64,000 bases of DNA from Anaerolineales bacterium. Its GTDB lineage: Bacteria; Chloroflexota; Anaerolineae; Anaerolineales; UBA4823. The translations under genes were made by a program, and so were the position numbers. Positions 25,870 through 30,795 of the stretch are shown here, in pieces (within the stretch, counting starts at the first letter, position 1; each line of letters opens with the position of its first letter). The notes under the pieces are model-generated. The model was not told the DNA's origin. It did no database searches and worked only from the letters and a program-made list of their open reading frames with translations. The stretch spans positions 1 through 64,000 of the forward strand of contig PQAL01000018.1 in the NCBI GenBank assembly GCA_003105035.1. Direction: 5' to 3'.

Positions 25870-27105
25870 CTATGGGGTCGTACCCAGGGCAGGGATGGCG
25901 TGGTAACCACTGGCAGCTGACTGCAGCTCAGCAGCAGTTTTAAGCGTGCCATGGCAATGGCGGCAAGCATAATCCAGGCTCACCTGCCCGGTTGCCAAGC
26001 TGCCATCTTCGTTGAACTGGCTCACCTTTCGTGGATCGATGGCCATGACGTGCGTAGCCATATCGCCAGTGAATGCCTGAGGATTGGCTGAGCCGCTCTG
26101 GATGAGGTGCGGCATATGGCAATCTCTGCAGCCAATGTTATTGGCAACGTGAGCAGGGTTGTTTTGGAATTGGGCTTCCTGCCAGTGGCAATCCTGGCAG
26201 AGCAGCTTGGTCGTTGGCTCGCCAGTAACCTGGGATTGGACTACACCGGAATGAGGATCATGGCAGGTCAGGCAGGTCAGTACCTGGTGCTTACTCTGGC
26301 TGAGATCACCAAACTGGTCGGTGTGTTGGATGAAACCATTCGCTACATCCAGTGAGGCAGTGGGCACATAGACATGGCATTCCCTGCACAGGCTGGAATC
26401 GGTCTGCACAAGCATGCGTACCCCCTTGGGATTATTGGCATGCAAACTTCCGGGTCCATGGCAACGCTCACACCTCACACCGGGTTGAGCCCAGGTGCCG
26501 GTGATACCCGGCAGTTCGTCCTGGCTGCCACCACTGGAAAATCCCGTGGTATGGCAGGTTCCGCAGGTAAACGGTAGGTCAGCTTCACCAGAATGATAAG
26601 AAGTCCAATTTGGGGAAAGACCCAGGCTGCTATTTCCAAGATTGTACTGGTTAAAGAAGCTCGTGTCGCCAGCTTTGGCAGGCGTATCGGTGATGATGTA
26701 GCCTTCGGAGTTGACGAAGATCGCTTTCCAATAATAACCACCGATTATATAGCTGATATCATTCAAGGAATATCCTTGAGGTGTGGCGGGTATCTGGCTG
26801 AATGGATAGTCAGGTGATTTCCCTTCGCTGATCTGGTTGAGGCTCCACGGATGGCCCGATTTCATGTAGGTTTGGGAAATGTCATAGTGGCAACCGGAGC
26901 ATAACTGATCACCGACGTACTCAGCACCGGTTGGTCCAGGTTCACCTGCAGGGCCAGTCTCACCAACCGGTCCAGCAGGCCCTTCGGGACCAGCAGGCCC
27001 AGCCGGGCCAACAGGCCCAGGCTCACCTTGGGTTCCTGCACAGGCTGATAAGATGCCTGCGAGGATGAGCAGTAAACCAATAAGCATAAGTAATTTCCGA
27101 GACAT
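25870..27105 (-). CDS. Octaheme c-type cytochrome lipoprotein with collagen-like stalk
   Basis: 411 residues. The signal peptide ends in lipobox LSAC (Cys22). Residues 27-62 are about eleven uninterrupted Gly-X-Y triplets rich in Pro, Ala and Glu. The cytochrome part has eight CXXCH sites: CSGCH, CGTCH, CERCH, CRECH, CLTCH, CQDCH, CRDCH, CRHCH. GAGGAG lies 6 nt before the ATG. The layout is a lipid anchor, a rod that could trimerise as collagen-like triple helix, and a heme domain held off the membrane. This suggests electron delivery through the wall layer or to an external acceptor (inference). It has its own promoter and terminator. Confidence 0.92.
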   Translation of the reverse strand: MSRKLLMLIGLLLILAGILSACAGTQGEPGPVGPAGPAGPEGPAGPVGETGPAGEPGPTGAEYVGDQLCSGCHYDISQTYMKSGHPWSLNQISEGKSPDYPFSQIPATPQGYSLNDISYIIGGYYWKAIFVNSEGYIITDTPAKAGDTSFFNQYNLGNSSLGLSPNWTSYHSGEADLPFTCGTCHTTGFSSGGSQDELPGITGTWAQPGVRCERCHGPGSLHANNPKGVRMLVQTDSSLCRECHVYVPTASLDVANGFIQHTDQFGDLSQSKHQVLTCLTCHDPHSGVVQSQVTGEPTTKLLCQDCHWQEAQFQNNPAHVANNIGCRDCHMPHLIQSGSANPQAFTGDMATHVMAIDPRKVSQFNEDGSLATGQVSLDYACRHCHGTLKTAAELQSAASGYHAIPALGTTP

Positions 27106-27185
27106 ATGCCGCTCCTCACTAATAACTTTTTAATCTGAGGGCATATTTTACACTACTTTTCCTTCCATGCTAACCTAATCTCGTG

Positions 27186-27191
27186 TATAAT
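27186..27191 (+). promoter_or_regulatory. -10 element of the aspS-asnS leader transcript
   Basis: A perfect TATAAT, 22 bp before the leader peptide start codon. The -35 (TTCCAT at 27163-27168, 17-bp spacing) is weak. Predicted transcription start near 27198, just before the leader ribosome site GGAG at 27203-27206. Confidence 0.65.
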
Positions 27192-27212
27192 GCTGAAAAT
27201 TTGGAGCTTGGG

Positions 27213-27305
27213 ATGAAACTTTTAATCTGGGCTTTCTTCACACTCAATGATAATGATAATCCAGGCTTGCATCGGGCGAGAGGCTTCAGGCTGCAAGAGC
27301 GCTGA
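27213..27305 (+). CDS. Asn/Asp leader peptide of the aspS-asnS operon
   Basis: A 30-codon gene starting ATG 27213 with GGAG 6 nt upstream, ending TGA 27303-27305. It begins MKLLIWAFFTL; residues 12-16 are Asn-Asp-Asn-Asp-Asn (codons AAT GAT AAT GAT AAT, 27246-27260), followed by a basic tail. The five consecutive codons are exactly those decoded by the products of the two downstream synthetase genes. Scarcity of charged tRNA-Asn or tRNA-Asp would stall ribosomes there. Its role is regulatory through translation rather than through the peptide product. Confidence 0.82.
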   Translation: MKLLIWAFFTLNDNDNPGLHRARGFRLQER

Positions 27306-27359
27306 GCCAGAGAGGTCATCATCGATCGCCCGACGCCACCCGCGAAGGGCGATTTTTTT
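27272..27359 (+). promoter_or_regulatory. Transcription attenuator of aspS-asnS
   Basis: Terminator: ATCGCCC (27325-27331) pairs with GGGCGAT (27347-27353), ending in seven T (27353-27359). Competing antiterminator: TCGGGCGA (27272-27279) is perfectly complementary to TCGCCCGA (27326-27333), which includes most of the terminator's 5' arm. An internal hairpin, GGCTTCAG (27282-27289) with CTGAGCC (27302-27308), closes the loop. A ribosome stalled at codons 12-16 would cover to about 27270, leaving the antiterminator strand free. One reaching the stop codon would sit between the antiterminator strands and favour termination. Confidence 0.78.
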
Positions 27360-27394
27360 ACCAATTGGCTGGTGTATCTGAATGGAGGCAATGA

Positions 27395-29158
27395 ATGTAC
27401 AAGACGCATACATGTGGTGAGCTACGTGCCAGTCATCAAGGGATGACAGTCACTCTGGCAGGCTGGGTGAATCGCCGGCGAGTGCATGGTGGGATCAATT
27501 TCGTGGATCTACGCGATCGTTTTGGCTTGGTCCAGGTAGTCAGCGACCCGGAGAAATACCCTGAGATCCACCAGGCACTGGAAGAAGTTCGCCCGGAATG
27601 GGTGATCCAGGTGGAAGGCATTGTCAGGCTGCGCCCTGAGGGACTGGCCAACCCCAATATGCCCACGGGTGATGTCGAAGTCCTGGCGGTAAAAGTCAAG
27701 GTACTCAACCAGGCGAAAACCACGCCGATCACTATCAGCAAGGAAGAAGACGAGAACGAGGAAATCCGCCTGCGCTACCGTTACTTGGATTTACGCCGTG
27801 AACGCATGCGCGGCAACCTGATCCTGCGCCACAAGGTGATCAAGTTCATCCGTGATTATCTTGATAGTAAGGGTTTCTTAGAAGTTGAAACCCCAATCCT
27901 TTTCAAGACCACCCCCGAAGGGGCACGCGATTACCTGGTGCCATCGAGAGTTTATCCAGGAGAGTTTTACGCCTTGCCGCAATCTCCCCAGCAGCTGAAA
28001 CAACTGCTAATGGTGGCAGGCGTTGAGCGCTATTTCCAGATTGCCCGGTGTTTCCGTGATGAAGACCAGCGCGGTGACCGCCAGCCTGAATTTACCCAGC
28101 TCGACCTGGAAATGTCGTTTATCGAGCGTGAGGATATCATGCAGCTGATTGAAGAGATGTTCACCAAGATGGTCGCCCAGGTAGTGCCGGAGAAACGCTT
28201 ATTCGCCAGTCCGTGGCCGAGGCTTTCGTACCAGGAAGCCATGCAGCGTTTTGGCAAGGACAATCCGGACATCCGCTTCAGGATGGAATTAGTTGATGTC
28301 ACCGACCTGGCAGGGATGTCAGGTTTTCAGATCTTTGAGAACACGGTGAACGAAGGTGGGCACGTGCGCGGTATCAACGCCTCAGGCTCAGGCGATTACA
28401 GCCGCAAACAGCTGGACGAATTAGCGGAATATGCTAAGAAATATGGGGCGAAAGGATTGGCTTACATCGCCATCGCCACCAGCGGTGACCAGCGGTCGTC
28501 GTTTGCCAAGGCAGTCAAACCGGAAGTCCTGCAATCGCTCTTGCTCAGGATGGATGCCAAACCAGGTGACCTGCTGTTGTTCGTGGCTGACAAACCAGCC
28601 ATTGTTTTTGAGGTGCTTGGACGGCTGCGTGTATTACTGGCAGAGCGCCTCGACTTGATTGATCCGGACATCCTGGCATTCTGCTGGATCATCGATTTCC
28701 CATTCGTGGTATGGAACAGCGAAGAAAACCGCTGGGATCCGAGCCACCATTTATTCACCTCGCCGATGATGGAAGATATCCCTTTGTTGGACACCGAACC
28801 TGGGAAGGCGCGCGGTCAGCAGTATGACCTGGTGTTAAATAATTATGAAGTCGGCGGTGGCTCGATCAGGATCCACCAACGCCAGCTGCAAGAGAAGGTG
28901 TTCAAACTGATCGGCCTCGACCCTGAAGTGGCGCGGGAGCGTTTCGGGCACATGCTCGAAGCTTTTGAATACGGAACCCCACCTCATGGCGGAATCGCCC
29001 CGGGTATCGACCGGATTTGTATGATCCTGGCGGATGAGCCTAACATCAGGGAAGTGATCGCATTCCCCAAGAGCCAGACAGCGCGCGACCTGATGGCTGG
29101 TGCTCCATCACCAGCTGAACCAGCGCAGCTGCGCGAGTTACATATCAAAGTAGAATAA
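27395..29158 (+). CDS. aspS: Aspartyl-tRNA synthetase
   Basis: 587 residues, the usual bacterial length. The N-terminal OB anticodon-binding domain (about 1-105) has TLAGWVNRRRVHGGINFVDLRDR. The class II core contains motif 1 around FLEVETPILFKTTPEGARDYLVPSR, motif 2 FQIARCFRDEDQRGDRQPEFTQLD and motif 3 GIAPGIDRICM, with a bacterial GAD insertion between motifs 2 and 3. It charges tRNA-Asp; whether it also acts on tRNA-Asn cannot be read here, but a separate asnS follows. GGAGG lies 6 nt before the ATG, just after the attenuator. Confidence 0.97.
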   Translation: MYKTHTCGELRASHQGMTVTLAGWVNRRRVHGGINFVDLRDRFGLVQVVSDPEKYPEIHQALEEVRPEWVIQVEGIVRLRPEGLANPNMPTGDVEVLAVKVKVLNQAKTTPITISKEEDENEEIRLRYRYLDLRRERMRGNLILRHKVIKFIRDYLDSKGFLEVETPILFKTTPEGARDYLVPSRVYPGEFYALPQSPQQLKQLLMVAGVERYFQIARCFRDEDQRGDRQPEFTQLDLEMSFIEREDIMQLIEEMFTKMVAQVVPEKRLFASPWPRLSYQEAMQRFGKDNPDIRFRMELVDVTDLAGMSGFQIFENTVNEGGHVRGINASGSGDYSRKQLDELAEYAKKYGAKGLAYIAIATSGDQRSSFAKAVKPEVLQSLLLRMDAKPGDLLLFVADKPAIVFEVLGRLRVLLAERLDLIDPDILAFCWIIDFPFVVWNSEENRWDPSHHLFTSPMMEDIPLLDTEPGKARGQQYDLVLNNYEVGGGSIRIHQRQLQEKVFKLIGLDPEVARERFGHMLEAFEYGTPPHGGIAPGIDRICMILADEPNIREVIAFPKSQTARDLMAGAPSPAEPAQLRELHIKVE

Positions 29159-29179: not shown

Positions 29180-30523
29180 ATGGCACCCATTATTCGAGTA
29201 GATAAAATCGCTGAGTATGTCGGCCAGGAGGTAACCATCCAGGGCTGGGCATATAACCGTACTGATAAAGGGAAGCTGGTCTTTCTGTTGGTGCGCGATG
29301 GATACGGCTTCGTGCAATGTGTGGCTTTCAAAAGTGATTTGGACGAAGAGATTTTCGATAGGTTGACACGCTTGCCCCAAGAATCGTCTGTGATCATCAC
29401 CGGCGGAGTCAGGGCTGATTCACGCGCCCCGGGCATCCCTGGCGGATATGAGGTGGGTATTAAAAACGTAGAAATCGTGCAAGCGGCTGATATCGATTAT
29501 CCCATGGCGCTCAAGGAGCAGGGAGTAGATTTTGCCCTGGATCACCGGCATTTATGGATGCGCATGCCCAGCCAATGGGCGATCCTGCGTGTGCGTGCTG
29601 CGGTCATCAAGGCGATCAGAGAATGGCTGGATACCAATGGTTTTATCGGCATGGACACGCCCATCCTGACCCCGGCAGCCTGCGAAGGTACCACAACGTT
29701 GTTCGAAACACCATATTTCGATGAAGGTGTGGCGTACCTGGCACAGAGCGGCCAGCTATACAACGAAGCCGATATCTTTGCCTTTAAAAAAGTCTACTGT
29801 TTCGGCCCGACTTTCAGGGCTGAAAAATCTAAGACTCGCCGCCATTTAACCGAGTTTTGGATGGTAGAGCCGGAAGTAGCTTTCTGCGATCTGGACCAGC
29901 TGATGGAGATCGAAGAACAGTTTGTCTCCCACATCGTCCAGAGGGTACTTGAGCAATGTGCGCCTGAGTTGAGATCATTGAAGCGGGATGTCAAGCGGCT
30001 TGAGAAAATCTCACCCCCATTCCCGCGCATCTCCTACGACGATGCGTTGAAAAAGATCGAGCAGCTGCGGGATGAGACCGATGACCCGGAGAAGAAAGAG
30101 CTGCTCAAGATCGATTGGGGCATGGATTTTGGCGCCCCCCATGAAACCGAGCTCACCGGCCTGTATGAAAAACCGGTTTTTGTCTACGGATACCCGACTG
30201 ATGTAAAGGCTTTTTACATGGAACCCTGGCCGGGTAGACCCGAAGTCTGCAAGAGTGTTGATCTGCTTGCCCCAGAGGGATACGGCGAGATTATCGGTGG
30301 AAGTGAGCGCATCTCCAACCCGGATCTGTTGCTGCAGCGCCTCAGGCAGCATAGCCTGCCCGAAGAGGCTTTCCAGTGGTACCTGGAACTACGCAGGTTC
30401 GGTAGCGTGCCTCATGCGGGTTTCGGCATGGGCGTAGAGCGGACAGTCGCCTGGATTTGTGGGATTGAACATATCCGGGAGGCAATACCGTTCCCACGCA
30501 CGATCAAGCGCGTATATCCATAG
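29180..30523 (+). CDS. asnS: Asparaginyl-tRNA synthetase
   Basis: 447 residues. It has an OB domain (VTIQGWAYNRTDKGKLVFLLVRDGYG) and a class II core with YLAQSGQLYNEADIF, motif 2 FGPTFRAEKSKTRRHLTEFW and MVEPEVAF. The C-terminal motif 3 is GFGMGVERTVAWICG. The HLTEFWMVEPE signature separates AsnRS from archaeal-type AspRS. It lies 21 bp after aspS with a GGAGG site and shares its attenuated transcript, which explains both Asn and Asp codons in the leader. Direct tRNA-Asn charging is therefore available in this organism. Confidence 0.95.
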   Translation: MAPIIRVDKIAEYVGQEVTIQGWAYNRTDKGKLVFLLVRDGYGFVQCVAFKSDLDEEIFDRLTRLPQESSVIITGGVRADSRAPGIPGGYEVGIKNVEIVQAADIDYPMALKEQGVDFALDHRHLWMRMPSQWAILRVRAAVIKAIREWLDTNGFIGMDTPILTPAACEGTTTLFETPYFDEGVAYLAQSGQLYNEADIFAFKKVYCFGPTFRAEKSKTRRHLTEFWMVEPEVAFCDLDQLMEIEEQFVSHIVQRVLEQCAPELRSLKRDVKRLEKISPPFPRISYDDALKKIEQLRDETDDPEKKELLKIDWGMDFGAPHETELTGLYEKPVFVYGYPTDVKAFYMEPWPGRPEVCKSVDLLAPEGYGEIIGGSERISNPDLLLQRLRQHSLPEEAFQWYLELRRFGSVPHAGFGMGVERTVAWICGIEHIREAIPFPRTIKRVYP

Positions 30524-30611: not shown

Positions 30612-30617
30612 ATAGTT

Positions 30618-30795
30618 ACCCTGCTGTGCACGTGTTGTTGCTTTTTGCGTTCTGAGCCAACACTGATATTTGGGAGTCCACTCTCATGAAGGTGACGCGA
30701 TAGGCTAGAGCCAAGGCGGATCCTTCTGGTAGGACACCAACCTGCGAAAGCAGGTTCAGAACTTTGCATCACACGACATAGTGGGGTTCTTTTTA
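30618..30795 (+). ncRNA. ssrS: 6S RNA-like structured RNA
   Basis: A rod-shaped RNA of about 175 nt. The closing stem CCCTGCTGTG (30619-30628) pairs over all ten positions with CATAGTGGGG (30777-30786), allowing G-U, and is followed by TTCTTTTT. Inside, GTTCTGA (30649-30655) pairs with TCAGAAC (30756-30762). A small hairpin AACCTGC-GAAA-GCAGGTT (30739-30756) sits on the 3' side of the central region, as in 6S RNAs. An apical arm with GAAGG/CCTTC lies between. The GAGCC...TGATATTT segment at 30654-30671 resembles the 5' bubble of 6S. It would sequester housekeeping RNA polymerase holoenzyme. Not SRP, tmRNA or RNase P. Assignment rests on structure and is moderate. Confidence 0.5.

Follow-up and report, generated by a model that had tools for sequence, protein, structure and literature searches.

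The upstream region of aspS in the analysed window (the whole stretch of 64,000 nt from an Anaerolineales bacterium) contains a short leader frame with consecutive Asn and Asp codons, an antiterminator and an overlapping intrinsic terminator. We read this element as a ribosome-mediated attenuator of transcription that works like those of trp and pheST and senses asparagine and aspartate, with a probability of roughly 0.86. As 67 related upstream regions show this layout too, the element very probably represents a switch that raises aspS-asnS when charged Asn- or Asp-tRNA is short. Several features expected of an attenuator were found: a frame rich in cognate codons, an intrinsic terminator, a covarying antiterminator and an appropriate placement of the sensor, the latter evaluated by geometry and folding. 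A ribosome-mediated attenuator had already been proposed in a sequence-only reading of the window, together with a comparison of aspS upstream regions from related Anaerolineae as a check. This comparison was carried out and supports the proposal: in 67 upstream regions, counted without redundancy, a short frame with many AAY/GAY codons is conserved together with strands that covary.

All parts of the element are located on the plus strand. The -10 element TATAAT (27186-27191) was read directly from the sequence, and transcription is expected to start near 27198. It is separated by 21 nt from the leader ATG, and a Shine-Dalgarno-like GGAG (27203-27206) is present 6 nt 5' of this codon; the window leader is not leaderless. 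The leader frame (27213-27305) encodes MKLLIWAFFTLNDNDNPGLHRARGFRLQER and consists of 30 codons plus TGA (27303-27305). The sensor codons AAT GAT AAT GAT AAT (Asn-Asp-Asn-Asp-Asn) occupy 27246-27260. Region 2 (27269-27279), the 5' strand of the antiterminator, is located within the leader frame. Region 3 (27326-27336) is both the 3' strand of the antiterminator and the 5' arm of the terminator. The antiterminator has a core of 8 bp formed by TCGGGCGA (27272-27279) with TCGCCCGA (27326-27333), and it can be extended by pairing of G27269 and C27270 with C27336 and G27335, whereby one A-C mismatch is included. The stretch between regions 2 and 3 (27280-27322), into which the leader stop codon falls, can form a stem of its own in the predicted fold and would thereby shorten the antiterminator loop. 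The intrinsic terminator (27324-27359) consists of a hairpin up to 27354, in which ATCGCCC (27325-27331) pairs with GGGCGAT (27347-27353), and a run of seven T (27353-27359). Checked base by base, all coordinates in the sequence-only reading proved correct for the promoter, GGAG, frame, Asn/Asp codons, antiterminator and terminator.

Generic promoter and terminator scans listed neither the window promoter nor the window terminator, the stem of which has an internal loop. This interruption is found at 27332-27333 and 27345-27346 and is conserved in most leaders, with GA facing GA, AA or TA. Its 5' side belongs to the antiterminator strand, which may explain the persistently imperfect stem.

Downstream of the element, aspS (aspartate-tRNA ligase, 27395-29158, plus strand) begins with ATG at 27395 and matches TIGR00459 with 754.9 bits. 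It is followed by asnS (asparagine-tRNA ligase, 29180-30523, plus strand), matching TIGR00457 with 446.7 bits at a cut-off of 342.6. The curated models confirm the AspRS and AsnRS identities, so that the downstream gene pair named from the sequence is borne out. A 6S RNA (RF00013, 68.7 bits; 30615-30791, plus strand) starts ~90 nt past asnS, and TATAAG just 5' of it suggests a promoter of its own; of the 12 loci of relatives that were scanned, 7 show the same order aspS-asnS-6S. On the other side, a gene for a multiheme cytochrome-like lipoprotein (25870-27105, minus strand) is divergent from aspS. The N-terminal part of its product is a collagen-like GPx repeat (GEPGPVGPAGPAGPEGPAGPVG).

The aspS upstream regions were derived from a whole-genome search for relatives, a species-genome scan and a phylum-wide sample, leaving 199 regions once duplicates were removed (112 and 87). 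A joint scan for an Asn/Asp run and a terminator yielded 76 candidates, nine of which did not show the layout and were removed by eye. The 67 remaining regions (67/199) keep the run, the internal antiterminator strand and a stop codon ahead of the terminator; the terminator is present in all 67, but the joint scan required one. Geometry was tabulated for 68 loci, comprising these 67 and L099. In the relatives mostly 6-12 codons precede the Asn/Asp run, and region 2 begins 2-20 nt past the last Asn/Asp codon, inside the frame. The distance from stop codon to terminator has a median of 20 nt (quartiles 18-24), and in a few lineages (L053, L044 and L015) this codon is located within region 2 or immediately 3' of it. 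Given this position of region 2, a ribosome stalled on the run would leave it free, and given that of the stop codon, a ribosome there would sit between regions 2 and 3. That the antiterminator strand resides inside the reading frame had appeared puzzling from the window alone; it is a conserved property, with the strand just 3' of the Asn/Asp codons.

The codon content of the frame was evaluated by a codon-blind scan, in which the best-pairing stretch to the 5' arm of the terminator was located and residues were then counted in the preceding 12 codons. The sample comprised the 75 of 112 regions with a terminator near aspS. Asn amounted to 3.03 per 12 codons compared to 0.39 in shuffles, Asp to 1.47 compared to 0.30, and both combined to 4.5 in the relatives compared to 0.66. 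At least four Asn/Asp codons were found in 64% of loci vs 0.5% of shuffles. The composition of the leader frame (34% Asn, 13.6% Asp) also differs from that of the other two frames (<1% Asn, 0.6-1.5% Asp), but these percentages are biased, as the frame was picked for its Asn/Asp run, and the codon-blind scan gives the unbiased figure. Moreover, the third base is strongly skewed, with 229 AAY vs 11 AAR and 110 GAY vs 6 GAR codons. The enrichment together with T or C at the third base makes it very probable that the leader frame is translated and has been retained for Asn and Asp.

Queuosine is present in the tRNAs of four amino acids, namely Asn, Asp, His and Tyr. The codons could accordingly report this tRNA modification. 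However, His (0.9%) and Tyr (0.7%) are not enriched in the leader frame, for which reason queuosine sensing was rejected; the link of the element to aspS also speaks against this extremely improbable explanation.

Within the 67 leaders the runs hold 268 Asn and 105 Asp codons. Both are present in 61 leaders; the other six contain Asn alone, and no leader has Asp without Asn. Due to the ratio of ~2.5:1 and the six runs without Asp, asparagine may be the main signal. The same counts would be expected if the attenuator had asparagine as its only real signal, the Asp codons being passengers or tuning the stalling. We regard this variant as rather doubtful, since 61 of 67 leaders carry both codons and Asp exceeds its background in the leader frame as well as in the unbiased scan. 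The earlier claim that one leader senses two tRNAs is sustained by the leaders with both codons and qualified by the excess of Asn and by the runs lacking Asp. Asn and Asp codons are interleaved, with mean distances to the terminator of 73.5 and 72.7 nt, so that a shortage of either amino acid would stall the ribosome at one place. The Asn/Asp mix showed no obvious difference between leaders with and without an adjacent asnS.

Region 2 and the region 3 of the same leader form a duplex of -17.8 kcal/mol on average vs -15.4 kcal/mol (sd 0.31) with reassigned partners; none of 5000 reassignments of region 3 matched the own-partner energy, whereby this statistic ignores relatedness. At least eight consecutive pairs in the fixed register were found in 45 of 64 loci vs 6.6% of shuffles; this register is anchored on a CCC/GGG core, which is hence not counted as evidence. 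Variable positions show compensatory pair types, either C-G, T-A, T-G and G-C or G-C, A-T, G-T, C-G and T-A, as exemplified by GCGTCGGGTGA with TCGCCCGACGC, CATCGGGCGG with TCGCCCGATG, CCAACCGGGGGTTTC with GAAGCCGCCCGGTTG and GTTGGGCGA with TCGCCCAAC.

Past the run, the peptide shows partial conservation (RRV, RAV, VGR), as one would expect of a leader peptide that itself arrests the ribosome in the fashion of TnaC or SecM, with the Asn/Asp run being part of the arrest sequence and not a charging sensor. Yet it is the antiterminator strand that encodes these residues, and they track its sequence; the residues ahead of the run are unconserved, and both the length of the run and its Asn/Asp order vary freely, which makes an arrest peptide very unlikely. 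Folded alone, the window sequence has an unremarkable energy (z -1.3). This is the one point in favour of chance, in which case an unexceptional terminator upstream of the gene would have a short frame next to it by accident, an explanation that is contradicted by codon conservation, covariation and all comparative results and to which we give hardly any credence.

Folding models of the attenuator were evaluated for the stalled and the terminating state. With the ribosome modelled as stalled and region 4 not yet transcribed, 64 of 67 leaders have region 3 paired to upstream sequence, and with the RNA masked up to the stop codon by a modelled ribosome the terminator forms in 67 of 67. Once region 4 is present in the stalled state, the antiterminator is still the best fold of the window leader in the model; for most relatives the terminator is predicted to be lower in energy. 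As this holds even when the ribosome is stalled, folding order would have to decide in these species. A protecting hairpin of regions 1 and 2, which belongs to the classical attenuation scheme, has a mean z of only -0.29 over the 67 leaders and is strong only in some lineages (L015, L063, L091 and L057). Six leaders (L015, L063, L057, L091, L096 and L054) show a strong hairpin from the end of the Asn/Asp run to region 2, which would hide region 2 without a stalled ribosome.

The proposed mechanism for the window is as follows. Transcription would begin near 27198 and a ribosome would start on the leader of 30 codons. Under a shortage of charged tRNA-Asn or tRNA-Asp, it would stall at 27246-27260, leaving region 2 free to pair with the emerging region 3. 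No terminator would form in this case, and RNA polymerase would continue into aspS-asnS. With both tRNAs charged, translation would proceed across region 2 as far as the stop codon at 27303, where the ribosome would sit between regions 2 and 3, whereupon region 3 would pair with region 4 and transcription would end near 27359. Stalling, read-through and the response to starvation are what we infer from this arrangement of codons and pairing strands.

The start of the leader differs between lineages. TGN precedes the -10 element in 57 of 68 relatives. In 32 of 65 relatives the ATG is located only 6-10 nt past TATAAT, most often 6 or 7, a spacing that predicts an mRNA whose 5' end coincides with the start codon or lies only a few bases from it. 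In about half of the lineages the leader mRNA thus looks leaderless.

The element is specific for aspS. Over 61 genomes the terminator pattern gave 22 matches, 20 of them directly 5' of aspS, while the remaining two are both strands of one palindrome in a single genome (G048); the reversed pattern had no match in the 61 genomes. All 67 leaders belong to the window's own class, following the genome grouping used for the search, or to records titled Anaerolineae, Anaerolineales, Thermoflexia or plain Chloroflexi, and none was found in the 68 aspS upstream regions sampled from other Chloroflexota classes. The leader is absent in six close relatives (L010, L017, L019, L026, L027 and L029), where a cupin-like gene is located directly 5' of aspS.

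Only 19 of the 61 genomes contain asnS. The window's own genome has asnS and gave no gatB match. Nearly all genomes lacking asnS have gatB, often in two copies; those with asnS have one or none. Leaders with Asn and Asp codons are found with or without asnS, e.g. L032 and L035 from two genomes lacking it (G057 and G044). Due to this distribution, sequence comparison indicates that the attenuator is tied to aspS and not to the aspS-asnS pair. The former description as the control of a two-synthetase operon applies to aspS-asnS in the window and does not extend to the genomes without asnS in which the leader also precedes aspS. In the latter, AspRS is presumably non-discriminating. A more general reading, which we consider about evenly balanced, is that one leader watches Asn-tRNA and Asp-tRNA by either supply route and is leaderless in about half of the lineages. 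One route would be AspRS with AsnRS (asnS present, no gatB found), the other AspRS with the amidotransferase in the absence of asnS; in this second route both tRNAs would be supplied by one non-discriminating synthetase.

T-boxes (RF00230) were matched in 61 of 61 genomes, with nine matches in the window's own genome, the pheS of which has a T-box. T-box identity was rejected for the element itself because no RF00230 match lies 5' of this aspS, and no T-box or other Rfam match was found in 27150-27420 at E up to 1. Leaders with cognate codons were not seen 5' of pheS, hisS and trpS in these genomes. T-boxes resemble the present leader in controlling synthetase genes by tRNA charging, often via an exchange of terminator and antiterminator, but sense the tRNA directly without translation.

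Leader-peptide control of synthetase genes is known from the pheST attenuator of enteric bacteria with its PheM leader. Leaders with codons for several amino acids are represented by thrL (Thr/Ile) and ilvL (Leu/Val/Ile) of E. coli; these likewise combine more than one amino acid in a single peptide but control biosynthesis operons, whereas the present leader precedes synthetases. In mycobacteria, leaderless short frames with cysteine codons attenuate operons. They are comparable to the half of our leaders with ATG 6-10 nt past the -10 element, being leaderless short frames with cognate codons, but they concern cysteine, belong to another phylum and are not known to have a conserved intrinsic terminator. 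Further synthetase genes under leader-peptide control are trpS and leuS in Streptomyces (PMC1262725). The pheST, trpS and leuS attenuators share with the present one a leader rich in cognate codons, the competition of antiterminator and terminator, and synthetase genes downstream. They differ by sensing one amino acid each and by occurring in other phyla; here Asn and Asp are combined 5' of aspS, with or without asnS. His leader peptides precede hisS paralogues in bacilli (PMC2965389), where a leader peptide likewise replaces the T-box of a synthetase gene, though for another amino acid, in another phylum and with no sequence link to the present leader.

Neither a published Asn or Asp leader peptide nor an attenuator with a leader peptide from Chloroflexota was found in the open literature that was searched. 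Attenuation of aminoacyl-tRNA biosynthesis operons is reportedly the subject of a comparative paper by Lopatovskaya and colleagues, which could contain an earlier prediction.

Most descriptions of amino-acid leader peptides come from Proteobacteria, Actinobacteria and some Firmicutes (PMC2965389). The attenuator proposed here would add Chloroflexota as a phylum, Asn and Asp as sensed amino acids, and an operon of two synthetases as a target. Since leaders and T-boxes, e.g. 5' of pheS, are found in the same genomes, both devices appear to coexist and to serve different genes. The retention of the leader in the absence of asnS raises the testable question whether both tRNAs are watched because one non-discriminating AspRS supplies both. 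Moreover, the leaders that look leaderless would offer a system for studying attenuation in which no Shine-Dalgarno start is involved.
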